From NCBI RefSeq assembly GCF_003052515.2, contig NZ_QARE02000001.1, positions 496,001-560,000 on the forward strand: a stretch of DNA of 64,000 bases, written 5' to 3'. Source of the DNA: Pseudomonas sp. RIT409 (GTDB lineage: Bacteria > Pseudomonadota > Gammaproteobacteria > Pseudomonadales > Pseudomonadaceae). The position numbers were made by a program, and so were the translations under genes. Positions 47,335 through 55,899 of this stretch are shown here, in pieces. Under the pieces are notes generated by a model. The model did no database searches and had not been told where the DNA came from. It saw only the letters and a program-made list of their open reading frames with translations. Positions within the stretch are counted from its first letter, which is position 1, and each line of letters opens with the position of its first letter.

Positions 47335-47679
47335 ATGAGCGACTCGATCATTGTTCTTCGCGATACCACACCGGTGCCCGTCGTCGACGCGTGCAAATGG
47401 GAACGCATCGGCGGCGACCCGCATACCGTCAACCTCAACGCCTACACCAGCGCCGACGGCCAGAAAATCATGGGCACTTGGATCTGCACGCCGGGCAAGT
47501 GGTATGTCGAGTATGTGAAGTGGGAGTACTGCGACTTCCAGGAAGGCTATTGCATCATCACGCCGGAAGGCAAAGAGCCCATTCACCTGCGAGCCGGTGA
47601 CAAGTTCATCGTCGAGCCCGGAATGAAAGGCACGTGGGAAGTGGTTGAGACCGTGCGCAAGTACTTCGTGTTTGCGTAA
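47335..47679 (+). CDS. Cupin-domain (DUF861-like) protein
   Basis: A 114-residue single cupin: WICTPGKWYVEYVKWEYCDF, GYCIITPEGKEPIHLRAGDK and FIVEPGMKGTWEV, as in the (S)-ureidoglycine aminohydrolase-like Cupin_3 group. Function not predictable. ATG 47335 with GGAG upstream. Confidence 0.85.
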   Translation: MSDSIIVLRDTTPVPVVDACKWERIGGDPHTVNLNAYTSADGQKIMGTWICTPGKWYVEYVKWEYCDFQEGYCIITPEGKEPIHLRAGDKFIVEPGMKGTWEVVETVRKYFVFA

Positions 47680-47725
47680 AGGCCGAAGCGGGTCCCCTAC
47701 AGTGGATCAGCCGCCACGGTAGCCA

Positions 47726-47759
47726 CCCATCCTGCGCAACCACGCTTGCGCAGGATGGG
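47726..47759. terminator. Hairpin between cupin and PEP-mutase genes
   Basis: CATCCTGCGCAA (47728-47739) and TTGCGCAGGATG (47746-47757), extended by two C-G pairs, 14 bp in all. It lies between convergent genes. Confidence 0.7.
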
Positions 47760-47764
47760 GCCGG

Positions 47765-48583
47765 TCAGCGCATTATTTTTTCAAGATGCCCGGGCGCCAA
47801 CGCCCGCTGCATGTAATCCATTCCGGTGACCTGATCCAACTCCGCCAGGACCATTGCGATCTGTTTGTAGGCCGCACGAAACAATGAGCTGCCGAGGCTC
47901 ACGCGCTGAACGCCCGCCGCGCGCAATCGATCGAGGGTCATGCGTTTGGCAGGGAGCACGTTGATCGGCTTGCTCAGTTCGCTTTGCACCGTCTTCAAAT
48001 CCTCCATGCTGCGCAGACCCGGCGCGAACAGGCAGTCGGCACCCGCTGCTTCGAAAGCGGTGAGGCGCCTGATGACTTCGCTCAACGAATATTCATGAGA
48101 CCCGAGCAAGTAGTCAGTTCGCGCCGTGACCACAAAATGCGGATTGCGGGTGCGCACCGCTTCACACGCCGCAATCACCCGCTCGCTGGCCTGTTCGACG
48201 CTGAAGAAAAGCGGGCCCTGCGGCGAGCTGTAATCGGCGATGTCTTCGATGGAGGCACCGCCACATCCCATATCGGAAACCTGTCGGAAGTTGCTCTCCA
48301 CCCCTTCGGCGGTTTTCGCCAGACCGTTTTCCAGGTCCGCGCTGACCGGAATCCGCACGGCGCGCACGATGCGGTCGATGGCGTCGAAACGAAACTGGTT
48401 GTCCATCGTCACCGATGAGTCGCCGTACCCGTGGGCATAGGCAATCCCTGCGCTGGTGGTCCCCAGGGTGGGGTATTCCAGTTGTTCGATCAGTCGCGCG
48501 CTGCCCTCGTCCCAGGCATTTGGCATCACAAACATGGGGCTACCGGGCCTGTGCAGATCGTTGAAGCGCTTGCTTGCATTCAT
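47765..48583 (-). CDS. Isocitrate lyase/PEP mutase family enzyme
   Basis: A 272-residue TIM-barrel protein. Start MNASKRFNDLHRPGSPMFVM. Family motifs: PNAWDEGSARLIEQL, SADLENGLAKTAEGV, ASIEDIADYSSPQGPLF and TARTDYLL (metal-binding acids). Usually a C-C lyase or oxaloacetate-type decarboxylase. Substrate unknown. Divergent from the biosynthetic cluster. Confidence 0.85.
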   Translation of the reverse strand: MNASKRFNDLHRPGSPMFVMPNAWDEGSARLIEQLEYPTLGTTSAGIAYAHGYGDSSVTMDNQFRFDAIDRIVRAVRIPVSADLENGLAKTAEGVESNFRQVSDMGCGGASIEDIADYSSPQGPLFFSVEQASERVIAACEAVRTRNPHFVVTARTDYLLGSHEYSLSEVIRRLTAFEAAGADCLFAPGLRSMEDLKTVQSELSKPINVLPAKRMTLDRLRAAGVQRVSLGSSLFRAAYKQIAMVLAELDQVTGMDYMQRALAPGHLEKIMR

Positions 48584-48633
48584 GAATGGCGTCCTCCTGG
48601 GTGCAAGACTAAAGCGCCTCGCGCCGGTACCCC

Positions 48634-48660
48634 ATTCAAAAAAATTGAATCGATTTCAAA
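48634..48660. promoter_or_regulatory. Inverted-repeat operator-like site in the divergent promoter
   Basis: ATTCAA-N5-TTGAAT (48634-48650) overlaps TTGAA-N5-TTCAA (48645-48659). Both are perfect inverted repeats, as expected of a LysR or similar dimer site, and lie between the PEP-mutase gene and the biosynthetic operon. Confidence 0.5.
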
Positions 48661-48728
48661 AATCATGAAAAGACAGCGCGGAACGATCATGAAAGTCTTG
48701 CCCCACCTTTTGCCTTGGACGCACTTTC

Positions 48729-49835
48729 ATGAAACGGACCGTAACCGCTTTATTGCTTTCGCTCGCCTGTACAACTGCATTTTCCGAACAAGTAACGCAA
48801 AACACTCACTCAACTCACTCGCCGCCCGAAACAGCACTTAGCACATTCAATCTGCCGGGCACTTCAATGAAAGTTGCGCTATGGCACGACCCCGCCACGG
48901 GCCCGCAACAGTCGGTACCCAAACAATCTCAAATTGTACTTTTCGTTCACGGCGCCACGATCTCCGGCAAGTTATCGGCGGGTTATCCCATCGACGGTTA
49001 TTCGTGGTCGAAGGATGTCGCCAATTCCGGGCGGGACGCCTGGGTGATCGACCTGCCCGGTTATGGCCGCTCGGACGACTACCCCGAAATGCGCAAGTCC
49101 GAGGCCCAGACCACGGCCGATCCCGTGGGCAATGCAAAGAGCCTGGTGCCGGTGCTGGACGCTGCGGTCGACTTCATCCTCAAGCAGAGCGGCGCCACCC
49201 AACTGACCCTTATCGCAACCTCGCGCGGTGCGATTCCAGCGGGCTACTACGCCACCGCCCACCCCGAAAAGCTGGAGAAGGTGGTGTTCAACTCGCCCAT
49301 CGTGCGAAGGGACAACATCGATCCAGCGATCATCAAAAGCCTGTTCGGCAGCGCCGACAGACCGAGCCAGAACTTCTACGAGATCCCCATGGACAAGCGC
49401 CTGGCGATGCTCACCGACGACCGACCGCCAGGCACCGAGGTACAGCTGGAAAAGGACTTCATGACTCAGTGGCCAAAAGACTCGCTCTCCGAGCGCGGCA
49501 CGCCACAGGGCACGATCAAAGTTCCGGGCGGATTCGCCCAGGATATTTATGACGCGTGGCACGGTACTTATTGGGACCCGGCAACTATCACAGTCCCGGT
49601 ATTAATTATCCGCGGTGATTACGACCATGTATTGACCCCTCGCGAAGATACGGACTGGCTATACAGCCATTTAGTAAATGCCCCCAGCAAGCGCTCGGTA
49701 CTTATTGATAAAGGCACCCACGCCATGTTGTTCGAAAAAAAGCGTTTTGAACTGTACCGCGAAGTTCAACTGTTTCTGGACGGCACGTATACCCCACTGG
49801 CATTGACCTGCAGTTTTTGCGGCGGCCGCAATTGA
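48729..49835 (+). CDS. Alpha/beta hydrolase, first gene of a biosynthetic cluster
   Basis: A 368-residue protein with an N-terminal signal-like segment (MKRTVTALLLSLACTTAFSE). Core: IVLFVHGATISGKL, AWVIDLPGYGRSDD, nucleophile in LTLIATSRGAIPAGYY (A-T-S-R-G, first Gly of GxSxG replaced by Ala), acid in IRGDYDHVL and histidine in KGTHAMLF. An unusual C-terminal tail ends TCSFCGGRN. It lies 16 bp before the ThiF-like gene. Its role in the pathway is unknown. Confidence 0.8.
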   Translation: MKRTVTALLLSLACTTAFSEQVTQNTHSTHSPPETALSTFNLPGTSMKVALWHDPATGPQQSVPKQSQIVLFVHGATISGKLSAGYPIDGYSWSKDVANSGRDAWVIDLPGYGRSDDYPEMRKSEAQTTADPVGNAKSLVPVLDAAVDFILKQSGATQLTLIATSRGAIPAGYYATAHPEKLEKVVFNSPIVRRDNIDPAIIKSLFGSADRPSQNFYEIPMDKRLAMLTDDRPPGTEVQLEKDFMTQWPKDSLSERGTPQGTIKVPGGFAQDIYDAWHGTYWDPATITVPVLIIRGDYDHVLTPREDTDWLYSHLVNAPSKRSVLIDKGTHAMLFEKKRFELYREVQLFLDGTYTPLALTCSFCGGRN

Positions 49836-49851
49836 GAAAAGGAGCACCATC

Positions 49852-50781
49852 ATGCTGAAGAAAGCACGCATCGTTACGCTGCAAGGCGTCCTCAATGAAC
49901 AGGTGTACCAGGAGCGCGTCTCGCGCAGCGGTTGTTTTCTGGGAAATACGCCCGAGCAACAGGTCGCGAACCAGGCCAAGCTCTCCAACGCCGTAGTGGG
50001 CGTGGCAGGGGCTGGCGGCATCGGGGGCGCTGTAGCGCTGGGGCTGGCGCGTCTGGGAGTGAGGCACATCAAGATCGCCGATCCGGACTCGTTCGAGATC
50101 AGCAACATCAACCGTCAGTTTGGCGCTTCGGTTTCCACCGTAGGCCGCAACAAGGCCCTGGTGGTGGCCGAAGAAGTCCACAAACTGGCCGGTGACGTGA
50201 CGCTTGAGGTCTATCCCGAGGGCATTCAAAAACACACCGCGGATGCCTTCGTCGACGGCTGCGATCTGGTGCTGGACCAGATGGACTTCTACAGCATCGG
50301 CGAACGCTACGCCCTGCATCGCGCCTATCGCAAATCGGCGAAATGCAAAGGCATGTTGGCCTCTTCCGTCGTGGGCTGGGGCGCCAACATCTACAAGTTC
50401 GAGAAGGACGGTCTCACGCTGGAAGACTTTTATGGCGTTCCTGAAGACGTGCAGATGACGCCTGACCTGGTGGATAAGCTCGTGAAGCTACAAGCGTCCT
50501 ACCAGCCGCGCTTCCCGAGCATCCCCGACATCTACGGCTGGATGCAGGACACCGGCAATGTGCCGATCCTGTCGATCGCGCCTACCGCGTCTCACTACCT
50601 GATCCTGTGCCGTTCGGCGCTGATGCTCTGCGACCTGGAAGGCGCCCCTTACAGCACACCGCTGCCGGCCATGCCCAAGTATTACTGGTTCGACGGTTCG
50701 ACCTTCGACAACGGCATCTTCGAGTTCGATGGGCAATGGGCCAACCCGGACGAACACCAAAAACACTTCCACGTCGCCTGA
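49852..50781 (+). CDS. ThiF/MoeB-like E1 adenylyltransferase family protein
   Basis: A 309-residue protein with the E1-like nucleotide fold: VVGVAGAGGIGGAVALGLAR, then IADPDSFEISNINRQFGAS (the D...N..R motif) and KALVVAEEVH. There are no zinc CxxC pairs in the C-terminal half, so it is a short E1-like enzyme of the kind found in small-molecule and peptide biosynthesis. Such enzymes adenylate a carboxylate. AAAGGAG ribosome-binding site 8 bp upstream. Confidence 0.87.
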   Translation: MLKKARIVTLQGVLNEQVYQERVSRSGCFLGNTPEQQVANQAKLSNAVVGVAGAGGIGGAVALGLARLGVRHIKIADPDSFEISNINRQFGASVSTVGRNKALVVAEEVHKLAGDVTLEVYPEGIQKHTADAFVDGCDLVLDQMDFYSIGERYALHRAYRKSAKCKGMLASSVVGWGANIYKFEKDGLTLEDFYGVPEDVQMTPDLVDKLVKLQASYQPRFPSIPDIYGWMQDTGNVPILSIAPTASHYLILCRSALMLCDLEGAPYSTPLPAMPKYYWFDGSTFDNGIFEFDGQWANPDEHQKHFHVA

Positions 50782-50826
50782 CGTGTCACGGCCCTCGCTC
50801 GCGGGGGCCACACCGAGGTCAGCGTC

Positions 50827-52050
50827 TTGAACATCACCCCTTCACTCGGAGCAACCCGCGATATCGCGCTGTTCCTTGGCGGCTCCGGCCTGTGGTTCAT
50901 CGGTGTCGGCATCCACAGCATTTTTTTGCCGTGGGTCTTGCTCAGCGAGCTTCGCGTCTCGCCCTTTCAGTTCGGTATCGCGCAGATGTGCCTGATGCTG
51001 CCCGTGTTGTTGCTGGTGATTTACGGGGGCTATCTGGCAGACCGGCAGCCCTTGCGTCGTTGGCTGGCGCGGATCTACCTGTGCGCCGGACTGCTCGCGC
51101 TCGTGTTCGCCGCTGGAGTGGCACAGGGCTGGTTGAGCTATCCGATGGTGCTGATGTACTCGTTGCTGTTCGGCGCATTGTCGGCTTTTTGCGCCCCGGC
51201 GAGGGAAGCCTGGTTGAACCTGCTCGGGCAGCACCAGTTGCAGAAGTGGGTCACGCTCAACATCGGCATCGAATTCGGCATTCAGATCGTCGGTTACGCC
51301 CTCGGCGGACAGGCGCCTGAGCTCGGCATCGGATGGATGTTCGTCTTGTTGGCACTGCTGTTCGTGACCGCTTCGCTCAGCGTGTCGCGCATCTCCACCA
51401 GCACGCCCACCAAGCCTCGCTCGGCCGTGCTGGACGAAACGCGCGCGGCCTGGCGCTACTCGACACACCATCCGGTGGTCTTTCCCGTGCTCTTGATAAA
51501 CGGCCTGATCGGGGTCTTTTTCCTCGGTTCGTATTTCGTCGTCATGCCGTTGCATGTCTCGCAGTTGGCAGGCGGCGACGCCTCGCTGCTGGCCACTGCG
51601 AACACCGTGTTCATGATCGGGCTGATCGCTTCAGTCGTGACGCTGGTGGTCACGGGCGGCCTTCGCCACAAACCGCGCGCGTTGATCGCTAGCTGCCTGT
51701 TGGCGGCGCTGTTGCTGGCTGCCCTGCCGTTCGTGTTCAACCGTGGGCTGCTGCTCTCGCTGCTGTTTGGCTGGGGGTTCCTCGGTGGCGTCGCGCTGAG
51801 CATGGGCCAGACCCTGATCCAAGAACATGCGCCGCCACGCAACAGGGCCCAAGTGTTGGCGCTACTGATGCTGTTCTTCATGGGCGGCAATCCCCTTGGG
51901 TCGTTGCTGCTCGGCACCCTGCTCGAATACCTGGACGCAACCATCGTGAGCCTAGGCAGTGCGCTGGCCATGACGGCGGCCCTCGTTTTCATTTCCTACA
52001 CCCATCGTTTCTGGAGTCTGCACCATGCGCCGCTCAACACATGCGCTTGA
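50827..52050 (+). CDS. MFS transporter (export candidate)
   Basis: A 407-residue twelve-helix MFS protein starting at TTG 50827 with GAGG upstream (NITPSLGATRDIALFLGGSG). Conserved YGGYLADRQPLRRWLAR between TM2 and TM3. In this setting it probably exports the product. It overlaps the next gene by 26 bp. Confidence 0.85.
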   Translation: MNITPSLGATRDIALFLGGSGLWFIGVGIHSIFLPWVLLSELRVSPFQFGIAQMCLMLPVLLLVIYGGYLADRQPLRRWLARIYLCAGLLALVFAAGVAQGWLSYPMVLMYSLLFGALSAFCAPAREAWLNLLGQHQLQKWVTLNIGIEFGIQIVGYALGGQAPELGIGWMFVLLALLFVTASLSVSRISTSTPTKPRSAVLDETRAAWRYSTHHPVVFPVLLINGLIGVFFLGSYFVVMPLHVSQLAGGDASLLATANTVFMIGLIASVVTLVVTGGLRHKPRALIASCLLAALLLAALPFVFNRGLLLSLLFGWGFLGGVALSMGQTLIQEHAPPRNRAQVLALLMLFFMGGNPLGSLLLGTLLEYLDATIVSLGSALAMTAALVFISYTHRFWSLHHAPLNTCA

Positions 52051-52690
52051 CTTCCCTATGCCGAACCGGTGCACCAATCGGGTCATCATCGCCCAGAGCG
52101 AAGACGATCTGGCCAAGGTCCGCACGGTCTGGGAAGAAGTCTACAAAGAAGAACTCGGCTGGCTCGACGAGCACCACACCAACCCGTGCACCGACCGTTA
52201 TCACGCCACTTCAGTGTACTTGCTGGCCACCGGGCCTGACGGTGAACCGGTGGGCGTGATGCGCATGGTCATCGACGGTGATCAGGGCCTGCCGGTGGAG
52301 AACTTCATCGACATCGCCGCCCTTCGCCAATCAGCACAAGGCCGGCTGGTGGAATGTGCGCGCCTGATGGTTCCGGCTCGATACCGCGACCAGAAATTCG
52401 CCGCCTACCCTCATGGCGTATTCGCCGCGCTGGTCAAGGCCGCGCTGCACCACTGCCTCAGGGAGAAGAACTACAACGTGCTGGCCAACTGTTTCGTCGA
52501 AACCCGCACCACACCGATCAAGGCCCTCACTCATCTGGGGTTTCGTGACCTGAACATCCGCTTTCGGGATGAGCTGAACGAAGCGTCGGAATGCACCGTG
52601 CTGCACCTGGACATCAAAGACATGCTGTCGATCTTTTATGGCCAGGAAGACGGGCTGGGCAACTACATCATGATGCGCAACGCCGGCTGA
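52025..52690 (+). CDS. GNAT/FeeM-like N-acyltransferase (acyl-homoserine-lactone synthase fold)
   Basis: A 221-residue protein of the autoinducer-synthase-like GNAT group. N-terminal VRTVWEEVYKEELGWLDEHH, central TGPDGEPVGVMRMVIDG and VECARLMVPARYRD, then VFAALVKAALHHCLREKNYN. FeeM-type enzymes join an acyl-ACP to an amino acid. The start at 52025 has GGAG 8 bp upstream; a later ATG at 52061 has none. Lies directly before the aminotransferase gene. Confidence 0.8.
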   Translation: MRRSTHALDFPMPNRCTNRVIIAQSEDDLAKVRTVWEEVYKEELGWLDEHHTNPCTDRYHATSVYLLATGPDGEPVGVMRMVIDGDQGLPVENFIDIAALRQSAQGRLVECARLMVPARYRDQKFAAYPHGVFAALVKAALHHCLREKNYNVLANCFVETRTTPIKALTHLGFRDLNIRFRDELNEASECTVLHLDIKDMLSIFYGQEDGLGNYIMMRNAG

Positions 52691-52711
52691 CGCCGCGCAG
52701 GACGGACCCTT

Positions 52712-54007
52712 ATGAACACACCGACTTCCATTTACCGGCTCGAATCCAATGTGCGCGCCTACTGCAGGAGCTGCGACGTGGTATTCGCCACCGCATCTGG
52801 GGCAACCCTGACGGACATCGAAGGCCAGCCCTACATCGACTTTTTTGCCGGCGCCGGCTCGCTGAATTATGGCCACAACAACCCTTACCTGAAAAAGCAC
52901 TTGCTGGCCTACATCGAACAGGATGGCGTGACCACCACGCTGGATTTTCACAGCGATGCCAAGTCGCGCTTCATCGAACGCTTCGAACAAGTGATCCTCG
53001 CGCCGCGAGGCATGCGTTACCAATTGCAATTCACCGGCCCCACAGGCACCAACGCCGTTGAAGCAGCGCTGAAACTGGCGCGCAAGGTCACCGGCCGCTC
53101 GAGCGTCGCGGCCTTTACCCATGGTTTTCATGGTGTGTCTCTGGGTGCGCTGGCTGCCACCGCCAACGCGGACAAACGCGCCGTCGCGGGGGTCGAGCTT
53201 TCCAACGTCGTGCGCCTGCCCTACGACGGTTTTTTTGGCCCGGACATCGACAGCGCCGAAATCATCGCCTCGCTCTACCAGACCGCGGGCAGCGGTTATG
53301 AGGCGCCCGCCGCGATCATCCTGGAGACGGTGCAGGGCGAAGGCGGCCTGAACTGCGCGCAACCGGGCTGGCTGCAACGCATCGAGCGTTTGTGCCGGGC
53401 GCTGGGGGCGCTGCTGATTGTCGATGACATCCAGGCAGGGTGCGGGCGAACGGGCACCTTTTTCAGCTTCGAACAGGCCGGTTTGTCTCCGGACATCATC
53501 TGCCTGTCGAAGTCCATCAGCGGCTACGGTCTGCCGATGTCGCTGGTGCTGATCAAACCCGAGCACGACTGCTGGGAAGCGGGCGAGCACAACGGCACCT
53601 TTCGCGGCAACAACCCAGCGTTTGTCACCGCCTGTGCCGCCTTGGACTATTGGCAGAACAGCCAACTGCAGGACGCCATCGCCGAGCATGCGTCGCTGAT
53701 GCGCACCGCGCTCGAAAGGATCCTCTCCGGCTTTCCATCGGGCTACGCGCACGTCGTCGGGCGCGGGATGTTCCTGGGCCTGAGGTTCCGGGACGCCAGC
53801 GTCGCCGGCGCATTGGTCGGTGCCTGTCTCGAACAGGGTCTGCTGGTGGAAACCTGCGGCCCGCAGAACGAAGTCCTCAAGCTGATGCCGCCACTGACCA
53901 TCGACACGGCCACCTTGCAACAGGGCCTGGACACGCTTGAACGCGCCTGCCTCAGCACCATGGCCTTTGACACCCCACTCACCCACTCGCTGCGAGGAAT
54001 TGCCTGA
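52712..54007 (+). CDS. Class III aminotransferase, EctB-like (diaminobutyrate transaminase)
   Basis: A 431-residue PLP enzyme closely resembling EctB and DABA transaminases: QFTGPTGTNAVEAALKLARK, LETVQGEGGLNCAQPGW, VDDIQAGCGRTGTFFSFEQ (D239) and the PLP lysine K267 in CLSKSISGYGLPM. EctB makes L-2,4-diaminobutyrate from aspartate semialdehyde. No ectA/ectC is nearby, so the product is presumably a building block for this cluster. It ends on a TGATG overlap with the next gene. Confidence 0.9.
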   Translation: MNTPTSIYRLESNVRAYCRSCDVVFATASGATLTDIEGQPYIDFFAGAGSLNYGHNNPYLKKHLLAYIEQDGVTTTLDFHSDAKSRFIERFEQVILAPRGMRYQLQFTGPTGTNAVEAALKLARKVTGRSSVAAFTHGFHGVSLGALAATANADKRAVAGVELSNVVRLPYDGFFGPDIDSAEIIASLYQTAGSGYEAPAAIILETVQGEGGLNCAQPGWLQRIERLCRALGALLIVDDIQAGCGRTGTFFSFEQAGLSPDIICLSKSISGYGLPMSLVLIKPEHDCWEAGEHNGTFRGNNPAFVTACAALDYWQNSQLQDAIAEHASLMRTALERILSGFPSGYAHVVGRGMFLGLRFRDASVAGALVGACLEQGLLVETCGPQNEVLKLMPPLTIDTATLQQGLDTLERACLSTMAFDTPLTHSLRGIA

Positions 54008-54717
54008 TGAACACCCTGATTCAACCGCTCGACACACCAATTGCTCACTGGAACCCCAGCGCCCACGTCCTTCAAGACCTGGCTGCCCTGAAGCAGGCAT
54101 TGATCTCGCAGATCACCAGCCATCCTTTTCTGACCGGATGCCGCAACGGCGACGTGTCGCTGGAGCGGCTCAAGGGCTTCCTGGTGCAGCAGGGCAAGTA
54201 CAGCCGACACTTCACCCGCTACATCTGCCAGCTAATGGTCAATCTGGAGTCCAGTGAGGACGTGCTCGAGGTGTTCGACAACCTGTTCGAGGAGCTGGGT
54301 TTCGGCGACGTGACCGAGCCACCTCATTCGCAGATCTACCGCGACATGCTGCAAGACTTCGATTTGCAACTCGATGCACATCCAACCCATCTCGCGACTC
54401 AACGGCTGATCGACAGCATGATGAACTTCTGCAAACAGCCCGAAGCTGCCTACGGCCTGGCGGCACTGTGCCTGGGCGCAGAAGCCATTGTGCCTGCCAT
54501 CTACAGCGACATCGTCAGCGGTTTCGTGCAGCAGGGCATCGACCGGCAAAGGCTGCGATTCTTCACCCTGCACATCGAATGCGATGATGGACACGCCGAC
54601 ACGCTGTTGGCCATCCTGGCGCGACAGGTCGACCAACACCCGGCGCGTTCAGAGGTGGTGCGCCACGCAGCGTTTCAGATGATTCAAGCGCGCCTGGCCT
54701 TTTTCGACGCGTTATGA
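54007..54717 (+). CDS. Haem-oxygenase-like diiron oxidase (iron-containing redox enzyme family)
   Basis: A 236-residue helical protein of the HDO/TenA-like fold. Ligand pattern is visible: E95/E96 and H107 in LFEELGFGDVTEPPHSQIYR, E159 in CLGAEAIV, and H189-x3-D193-x2-H196 in TLHIECDDGHADTL. Enzymes of this family do oxidative C-C or C-N cleavage and N-oxygenation in natural-product pathways. It overlaps the aminotransferase gene by one base, so the pair likely acts together. Confidence 0.88.
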   Translation: MNTLIQPLDTPIAHWNPSAHVLQDLAALKQALISQITSHPFLTGCRNGDVSLERLKGFLVQQGKYSRHFTRYICQLMVNLESSEDVLEVFDNLFEELGFGDVTEPPHSQIYRDMLQDFDLQLDAHPTHLATQRLIDSMMNFCKQPEAAYGLAALCLGAEAIVPAIYSDIVSGFVQQGIDRQRLRFFTLHIECDDGHADTLLAILARQVDQHPARSEVVRHAAFQMIQARLAFFDAL

Positions 54718-54724
54718 ATCACCC

Positions 54725-54752
54725 GGCAGGCCGGATGCTTTCGGCCTGCCCG
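54725..54752 (+). terminator. Hairpin after the biosynthetic operon
   Basis: GGCAGGCCG (54725-54733) and CGGCCTGCC (54742-54750), 9 bp perfect stem with 8-base loop, no long T run. Confidence 0.65.
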
Positions 54753-54975
54753 CCTCGGCGAGCCACGGCGCGCCATGGTATGAAACACGACCAAATGCGC
54801 TTCCTCCCGTCTTGCTAGCACTTGCACATCACCAATCATTCGGCCCACCATGGAAGTGCTGAACCTCACGACCAAACGCCCTGCGCAGGCTTGCGCGATC
54901 ACCATTACCTTTATACGAACGCGGGTAGTGAACTGATTTCAACCGCCGAAATCAGCCACTTCAGGAAAGAACTGC

Positions 54976-55899
54976 ATGTCTCGAATTTTCGATGTTGATA
55001 CCAACCTCTGGCGCACATTCAAGTCGGTCAGCGAAACCCGGAGCATCACTCGCTCTTCCGCTGTGCTGTGCAAGACGCCACCGGCCATCAGCATGCAAAT
55101 CAAAAAACTGGAAGAACTGCTCGACCTGCAGTTGTTCATTCGGGGGGACCATGGATTCAGGCTGACGCCCATCGGCGAAGAAGTTCTCATGACCGCCGAG
55201 AAGATCCTGACCATGAACGACAACCTGTTCAGGCTCAAGGACAAGGTCAACTCCTACGAATTACGTCTTGGATTACCCGATGACTATTCTCTGTTCTTTC
55301 TCCACGACATCATCCGCGCGCTGAACACGCTCGAACCGACGATCCACCTGAACGTCACCTGCAAGACGTCGCAACTGCTGATCACCGATGTCGAACACGG
55401 GAATCTGGATCTGGTGATCATCGCCACACCCGAAGGGCAAACCCTCGCCAACGCGGAGCACATTCGCTACGAGGAACTGAACTGGATCGGTGACCAATCC
55501 CTGATGCAACCCGGGCAACCCCTGCCGTTGGTGCATTTTCCCGAAGGCTGCATTTGCCGCGAGATTTCGGTGAACGCGCTGCGCATGGCCGGGATCGAAG
55601 CGCGTGTGAGCTTCAGTTCCGATTCGAACTTCTCGGTGTTCAACGCCATCAATGCCGGTGCTGGCATCGGCTTGAGCGAGCGCTCGCTGATTCCGAAAAC
55701 CACGCCGATCATCGACAGCCCACTACTGCCTTCACTGCCGCGCATCGAGCTGCGCACGGTGGCCAACTACGAACGCATCCCGCGCTTCACCCTCTCTCAG
55801 GTGTCCGCCAAGATCCAAGGCGCCATCAACGAGGCCTGCGAGGCACTCAATGCCGCGCGGGATGAACCCGAACTGCGCCTGCGCCAGCACCAGGTTTAA
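54976..55899 (+). CDS. LysR-family regulator following the biosynthetic operon
   Basis: A 307-residue LysR protein (NLWRTFKSVSETRSITRSSA, TPPAISMQIKKLEELLDLQL, GFRLTPIGEEVL). It lies 258 bp after the diiron oxidase on the same strand. A role in control of the cluster is inferred from position and from the operator-like site at 48634-48660. Confidence 0.88.
   Translation: MSRIFDVDTNLWRTFKSVSETRSITRSSAVLCKTPPAISMQIKKLEELLDLQLFIRGDHGFRLTPIGEEVLMTAEKILTMNDNLFRLKDKVNSYELRLGLPDDYSLFFLHDIIRALNTLEPTIHLNVTCKTSQLLITDVEHGNLDLVIIATPEGQTLANAEHIRYEELNWIGDQSLMQPGQPLPLVHFPEGCICREISVNALRMAGIEARVSFSSDSNFSVFNAINAGAGIGLSERSLIPKTTPIIDSPLLPSLPRIELRTVANYERIPRFTLSQVSAKIQGAINEACEALNAARDEPELRLRQHQV

Follow-up and report, generated by a model that had tools for sequence, protein, structure and literature searches.

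The present study describes a six-gene operon in Pseudomonas sp. RIT409 that may build and ring-close an acylated diamino acid. The operon lies within a 64,000-nucleotide stretch (contig NZ_QARE02000001.1, positions 496,001–560,000), here called the window, and operon coordinates count within the window. We assign a probability of approximately 0.5 to the reading that an acyltransferase and ThiF core of the acyl-oxazolone kind is joined here to an EctB-type aminotransferase and a diiron oxidase, and that a predicted N-acyl-2,4-diaminobutyrate is adenylated and ring-closed by ThiF.

Organization of the operon

The six genes occupy positions 48729–54717 on the plus strand with intergenic gaps of 45 bp or less (gaps of 16, 45, and 21 bp; overlaps of 26 and 1 bp). 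A LysR gene comes next, 258 bp after the stop codon of the haem-oxygenase-like dimetal oxidase (HDO) gene. An initial annotation of this DNA had described six genes running in one direction, with gaps of at most approximately 45 bp or overlaps, and a LysR gene after them; the coordinates and strand were verified for all seven. We scanned nine window genes spanning 47338–55899 against Pfam. Each gene family proposed in that annotation was matched above the Pfam cut-off, and EctB was also recognized at the equivalog level (TIGR02407).

48729–49835, plus strand: alpha/beta hydrolase, first operon gene (Abhydrolase_1, 56 bits, above the Pfam cut-off)
49852–50781, plus strand: stand-alone ThiF/E1-like adenylating enzyme of 309 amino acids, predicted cyclase (ThiF, 115 bits, above the Pfam cut-off)
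50827–52050, plus strand: predicted major facilitator superfamily (MFS) exporter with a TTG start (MFS_1, 83 bits, above the Pfam cut-off)
52025–52690, plus strand: FeeM/LuxI-type N-acyltransferase, predicted N-acyl amino acid synthase (FeeM PF21926, 34.6 bits, cut-off 27)
52712–54007, plus strand: EctB-type diaminobutyrate–2-oxoglutarate transaminase (Aminotran_3, 248 bits; TIGR02407, 592 bits, cut-off 552)
54007–54717, plus strand: HDO (Haem_oxygenas_2 PF14518, 85 bits)
54718–54975, no strand: gap without a cupin gene; a cupin gene of approximately 148 amino acids is at this spot in seven other genomes
54976–55899, plus strand: LysR-type regulator, kept with the operon (LysR_substrate, 68 bits, above the Pfam cut-off)
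47765–48583, minus strand: phosphoenolpyruvate (PEP)-mutase/isocitrate-lyase-family gene, divergent from the operon

Conservation in Pseudomonas

The initial annotation had suggested a search for the same six genes in other Pseudomonas genomes, and we found them in identical order in seven. Six of these came from 79 HDO loci obtained by scanning named genomes with the HDO alignment: L009–L013 and L052 carried all six genes in order, plus LysR and the divergent PEP-mutase-like gene. The full set was not shown by the other 73 of the 79 loci, eight of the 79 being less than 12 kb long. The seventh genome (L089) came from a sample of the genus; L088 and L090 duplicate the DNA of L011 and L013 and were left out of the count. 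The reading frames of the six genes are uninterrupted across the matched region in each of the seven genomes, except for the hydrolase gene of Pseudomonas sp. KUIN-1 (L012:4734–5846), which is broken near its end. The L089 copy of this gene is open throughout.

A search of 398 genomes of the genus with HDO (E ≤ 1e-20) returned seven matches, four close (100, 66, 66, and 65% identity) and three distant (33–39%). ThiF was found in four of the same 398 genomes (E ≤ 1e-60), and these coincided exactly with the four holding a close HDO. The four genomes are related and do not represent four independent events. Since the gene order is kept in seven other genomes and ThiF and the close HDO share the same four of 398, the linkage of the operon is more than chance. 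The idea that these are unlinked homologues that never co-occur, raised in the initial annotation as a possible refutation, is excluded. The flanks are common to the window, L009, and L052, whereas L010–L013 have a different common left flank; therefore, the operon occupies at least two genomic locations. Among the proteins, conservation is highest for ThiF (93% identity to L009 and 83% to L010), and in the window–L009 pair it is lowest for HDO (70%) and MFS (71%). The names of several Pseudomonas relatives indicate an association with plants.

Relationship to acyl-oxazolone pathways

In acyl-oxazolone systems, the product of an N-acyl amino acid synthase passes to a ThiF-type cyclase, which closes a ring on the N-acyl amino acid (PMC10404671, PMC12856293). 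The initial annotation had matched the gene set to no named pathway. However, its core corresponds to that of OxzAB (Pseudoalteromonas rubra), TyzABC, and TrzAS (mycobacteria, Rhodococcus), with which it shares an adjacent synthase of the FeeM/N-acyl homoserine lactone (AHL) synthase class and a ThiF cyclase with the adenylation-motif aspartate. The substrates of those systems are Tyr, Phe, and Trp, whereas the window operon adds EctB and HDO and has a ThiF in its own stand-alone clade. We looked for a nitroreductase-family flavin oxidase of the Oxz/Tyz/Trz type among the nine genes scanned (47338–55899), and it was absent; therefore, we do not count the operon as a member of this group. It looks like a variant of the acyl-oxazolone kind of pathway. 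The stieleriacine, thalassotalic acid, and kyonggic acid clusters (NasY, ThiF, and nitroreductase) also have an N-acyl amino acid synthase adjoining a ThiF-family gene; they make N-acyl (dehydro)tyrosines, and the available part of the source reports no EctB or HDO in them (PMC12479983). The literature searched, with most subscription journals outside its reach, yielded no published cluster that matches this one in genes and product.

The window ThiF is a predicted ATP-dependent cyclase, and its relatives amount to 229 proteins. D142 and R88 are invariant in all 37 aligned proteins and K101 in 36 of 37. Cyclization by TrzS, which is not in this alignment, requires a conserved adenylation-motif aspartate (PMC12856293). 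The structure model of the window enzyme has a predicted local distance difference test (pLDDT) score of 93.5, and its structural kin are AclA, ThiF, MoeB, PaaA, and MccB. Its scores against the curated ThiF and MoeB models are far below the cut-offs, and no ThiS/MoaD-like carrier or rhodanese partner was present among the nine genes scanned. The top models were PRK08223 (141 bits) and PRK14851 (106 bits), both below their own cut-offs; the same two were the top models for a ThiF-nitroreductase fusion (L118) and for a ThiF beside a FeeM protein (L119). In a phylogenetic tree, the stand-alone ThiF proteins form a clade (25 rows, 100/99) whose sister group consists of PRK14851-type ThiF domains (20 rows, 96/81), and four longer MccB-like rows are placed apart from it; Escherichia coli MccB and PaaA are absent from this tree.

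The window ThiF has its ThiF/E1 fold and adenylation residues in common with MccB (microcin C7) and PaaA (pantocin A), which act on ribosomal peptides (PMC12250964). The operon might, on this basis, belong to a pathway for ribosomally synthesized and post-translationally modified peptides in which ThiF would act on a ribosomal peptide as MccB and PaaA do, and HDO does occur together with MccB-like ThiF in other clusters (L069, L073, L092, and L093). However, MccB and PaaA are longer than the window ThiF, the domain of which begins at residue 37 versus 106–117 in the longer MccB-like proteins, and the latter form another clade. The acyltransferase and EctB also point to a free amino acid rather than a peptide. 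Two intergenic gaps are overlapped only by mechanical open reading frames of 28–136 amino acids. We regard a peptide pathway as extremely improbable.

Homologues of the acyltransferase numbered 24, and the seven with an organism name were all from Pseudomonas. Two were labelled "N-acyl-L-homoserine lactone synthetase" by their source. EctB is the sole copy found in the genome above the TIGR02407 cut-off, with the next copy at 352 bits. In comparison with the ectoine operon ectABC, both have a transaminase of the EctB level; however, the window pairs it with an acyltransferase of another class and with ThiF. EctA or EctC was not among the nine genes scanned (no PF06339), and a genome search for EctC was empty, with its control also silent.

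A related cluster on a Rhizobium plasmid

A plasmid of Rhizobium etli IE4771, which came from a bean nodule and is predicted to be conjugative, carries a LysR gene and the row hydrolase, ThiF, N-acyltransferase, EamA exporter, EctB, and acyl-CoA ligase. Thus, the window and the Rhizobium stretch have LysR and four of the six genes of the operon in common. Identities to the window proteins are 57% for ThiF, 52% for EctB, 41% for the hydrolase, 33% for LysR, and 32% for the acyltransferase, which aligns over 195 amino acids (E 5e-37). The Rhizobium EctB scores 556 bits against TIGR02407 (cut-off 552). The two clusters both hold an exporter, of unrelated kinds (DMT/EamA in Rhizobium versus MFS in Pseudomonas), and the Rhizobium cluster differs further in its extra acyl-CoA ligase. 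It has no annotated oxidase, and relatives of HDO, cupin, MFS, and the PEP-mutase-like protein were not found in the 19 kb around it (tblastn, E 1e-3).

Because the Rhizobium stretch holds these genes with no HDO nearby, we take the hydrolase, ThiF, acyltransferase, and EctB to be the older core, with LysR also among the shared genes, and export to be a replaceable function. HDO is probably a later addition in Pseudomonas and not the heart of the pathway, since none was found in the 19 kb around the Rhizobium cluster and members of the HDO family mostly have other partners.

The diiron oxidase and the cupin

The predicted metal ligands of HDO (E96, H107, E159, H189, D193, and H196) are unchanged in all 27 aligned relatives. 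They match His or carboxylate residues of BesC (7twa), the closest solved chain by sequence (E 1e-13), in an alignment judged by eye. Three His and three carboxylates constitute the 3H/3C ligand set (PMC13108848), which is canonical in MboA; BesC, CADD, MboA, and PolF have such ligands, and the window HDO is predicted to have them too. However, the protein is neither BesC nor CADD by score (NF042919, 44 bits versus a cut-off of 500; TIGR04305, 51 versus 200).

HDO may take over the desaturation that a flavin oxidase performs in OxzB, TyzC, and TrzS. The end product would then be an azlactone, a genuine acyl-oxazolone, with a side chain derived from diaminobutyrate, the amine of which is kept protonated, removed, or oxidized such that no lactam forms. 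The three characterized systems make oxazolones with O2-dependent desaturation (PMC10404671, PMC12856293), HDOs include known desaturases and C–C cleavers (PMC13108848), and the nine window genes scanned include no oxidase other than HDO. However, the Rhizobium cluster is without an annotated oxidase, although desaturation belongs to the known pathways, and lactam closure by a free gamma-amine is easy. We consider the azlactone rather unlikely.

A cupin gene follows HDO in all seven other genomes of the set (e.g., L009:10721–11167, L010:10692–11138, L011:10719–11165, and L012:10719–11165), whereas the window is without it; the initial annotation did not mention this gene. No cupin was found elsewhere in the window's genome, although this negative is weak. 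In the window's nearest relatives, L009 and L052, Gln replaces the first His of what we take to be the cupin metal motif, a change that would fit a cupin already losing its function in that lineage. Of the 79 HDO loci, 28 (22 of them outside the Pseudomonas set) have a cupin gene that begins no more than 400 bp downstream of HDO, and nine have one farther off; none was found in 42, three of which (L021, L071, and L087) have less than 3 kb downstream.

The ectoine synthase EctC has a cupin-type fold. The operon might make an acylated ectoine, with the acyltransferase modifying the gamma-amine in the role of EctA and the relatives' cupin in the role of ectoine synthase. EctB is an ectoine-type transaminase, and the position of the cupin gene after HDO in seven other genomes would also agree. 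However, the cupins of the four relatives scanned match Cupin_2, with no Ectoine_synth match, and the cupin is absent from both the window and the Rhizobium stretch. Furthermore, EctB was matched (E 1e-5) in only six of the 28 HDO-cupin loci among the 79, all in the Pseudomonas set, and this explanation leaves ThiF without a job. An acylated ectoine is very improbable.

HDO directly followed by a related cupin, or in one frame with it, occurs across Paraburkholderia, Lysobacteraceae, Pseudomonas, and Chromobacterium (e.g., L051, L058, L060, L064, and L085). Separate clusters with MccB-like ThiF were noted in Pseudomonas and Photorhabdus (L093:1107–10340, minus strand, and L073:9902–14442). HDO is in one frame with a cupin in L093 and with EctB in L073; L093 also has an EctB fused to a weak glutathionylspermidine-synthase-like part, in addition to TauD, GNAT, and ATP-grasp genes. 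Another Pseudomonas cluster (L069:7502–12664 and L092:8152–12592) has MccB-like ThiF, MFS, HDO, and DUF3182, with an alpha/beta hydrolase in L069.

The hydrolase

The N-terminal hydrophobic stretch of the hydrolase reads by eye as a Sec signal (MKRTVTALLLSLACTTAFSEQ), and a similar start was seen by eye in five other aligned Pseudomonas hydrolases; the enzyme is probably periplasmic. A Ser-Asp-His set is likely (ATSRGA, RGDYDH, and KGTHAM; by eye, with five Pseudomonas copies and the Rhizobium copy aligned). In the maturation of pyoverdine and colibactin, an acyl guard is removed after export. The acyl group may similarly be a removable guard here: work on N-acyl-diaminobutyrate in the cytoplasm would be followed by export through MFS, and the periplasmic hydrolase would strip the acyl group to leave a small modified amino acid. 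The signal-like starts, the place of the hydrolase at the head of the operon, and the fact that the Pseudomonas copies and the Rhizobium cluster all have an exporter, albeit of unrelated types, are consistent with this scheme. However, the Rhizobium hydrolase has no signal-like start, either as annotated or in the upstream frame, and alpha/beta hydrolases do many other jobs. We consider such a guard quite unlikely.

Proposed pathway

From the observed genes, their families, their conserved linkage, and their conserved active-site residues, we infer the substrates, ring type, step order, and export as follows. EctB likely converts aspartate semialdehyde to L-2,4-diaminobutyrate, which the FeeM/LuxI-type enzyme likely N-acylates from acyl-CoA or acyl-ACP. 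ThiF, with ATP, likely adenylates the carboxylate of N-acyl-diaminobutyrate. The side-chain amine, if free, would then attack the activated carboxylate to give 3-acylamino-2-pyrrolidinone, with an oxazolone as the alternative first-formed ring. HDO likely oxidizes the acylated diaminobutyrate before or after ring closure, and would hold the place of the flavin desaturase in known acyl-oxazolone systems. The MFS protein likely exports the product, which the hydrolase may open or trim.

With an activated diaminobutyrate carboxylate and a free gamma-amine, a five-membered lactam closes readily and is the chemically easiest outcome. We therefore favour the lactam: the product is most likely an acylamino-pyrrolidinone, predicted as the lactam (amide) twin of an AHL. 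The initial annotation had proposed the order EctB, acylation, carboxylate activation, remodelling by the diiron enzyme, and MFS export. This order is compatible with our results, and Rhizobium also pairs EctB with the acyltransferase and ThiF; however, the diiron step looks like an add-on. What was there termed carboxylate activation most likely amounts to ring closure, by the precedent of the acyl-oxazolone ThiF cyclases.

A more specific and rather unlikely extension is that Pseudomonas and Rhizobium have a signal system based on N-acyl-homoserine-lactam, with LuxI-like acylation, ring closure by ThiF, HDO decoration in Pseudomonas, and LysR as the reader. If true, AHL signals would have a lactam counterpart made by ThiF at the expense of ATP, the first of its kind.

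Several results weigh against the ring-closed N-acyl-diaminobutyrate reading. The acyltransferase is only weakly FeeM-like (34.6 bits against 27), a sequence search returned no kin in the PDB, and its structure model is poor (pLDDT 49); the Rhizobium acyltransferase is below the FeeM cut-off (20.4 versus 27). EctB may serve another amino acid. The stand-alone ThiF clade is on a long branch, and the tree tool flagged long-branch joining. An acyltransferase gene adjoins only one of 20 PRK14851-type loci, as judged with a narrow profile and approximately 1.5 kb of flank each. In a phylum sample of 398 genomes, ThiF was found only in the window's own genome. The BesC and CADD scores are far below the cut-offs, and the reaction of HDO is not readable from the sequence. 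A ThiF relative was found in 19 plasmid records; EctB occurred in only one of the five neighbourhoods examined, that of Rhizobium, and hence the cross-class evidence comes from one locus. The neighbourhoods in Salmonella, Lactiplantibacillus, Staphylococcus epidermidis, and Corynebacterium showed no EctB or such acyltransferase by tblastn. These four ThiF relatives adjoin GNAT and a methyltransferase, or a formyl-/carbamoyltransferase; therefore, the ThiF family need not act on fatty-acyl amino acids.

Neighbouring features and other ThiF settings

The PEP-mutase-like gene, which the initial annotation did not include, is kept beside the operon in the seven other genomes, and its link to the pathway is uncertain. 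A relative (35%) is next but one after the related ThiF on the Salmonella enterica plasmid p28NP2 (L095:8426–11626), which has a row of GNAT, the ThiF relative (44%), a carboxyl-methyltransferase-like protein, and the PEP-mutase-like protein. A second setting was noted on Lactiplantibacillus, Staphylococcus epidermidis, and Corynebacterium plasmids (L096:8959–12060, L097:518–4632, and L098:6662–9560), with ThiF relatives (42%) beside a formyl-/carbamoyltransferase and an MFS exporter.

A perfect 10-nucleotide inverted repeat (TCATGAAAGT / ACTTTCATGA, 26 nucleotides apart) is located at window positions 48687–48732, before and over the hydrolase start, and a 9-nucleotide hairpin lies downstream of the HDO stop (54725–54750). 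They are possible operator and terminator candidates, respectively.

Implications

If the proposed pathway is true, the acyl-oxazolone kind of pathway extends from aromatic amino acids to a diamino acid, with a lactam rather than an oxazolone as the ring. The operon would also provide a compact enzyme set with which a novel HDO-catalysed conversion of an acylated amino acid could be sought in vitro. The widespread HDO-cupin module may point to a dedicated partner for many uncharacterized diiron oxidases. Since the core occurs both in Pseudomonas and on the plasmid of a bean-nodule Rhizobium, and the names of several Pseudomonas relatives refer to plants, the product could plausibly be a signal, an antimicrobial, or a compound active on plants. 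The core of this operon recurs in a second bacterial class, and the operon may yield a new molecule that resembles a signal or an antibiotic.

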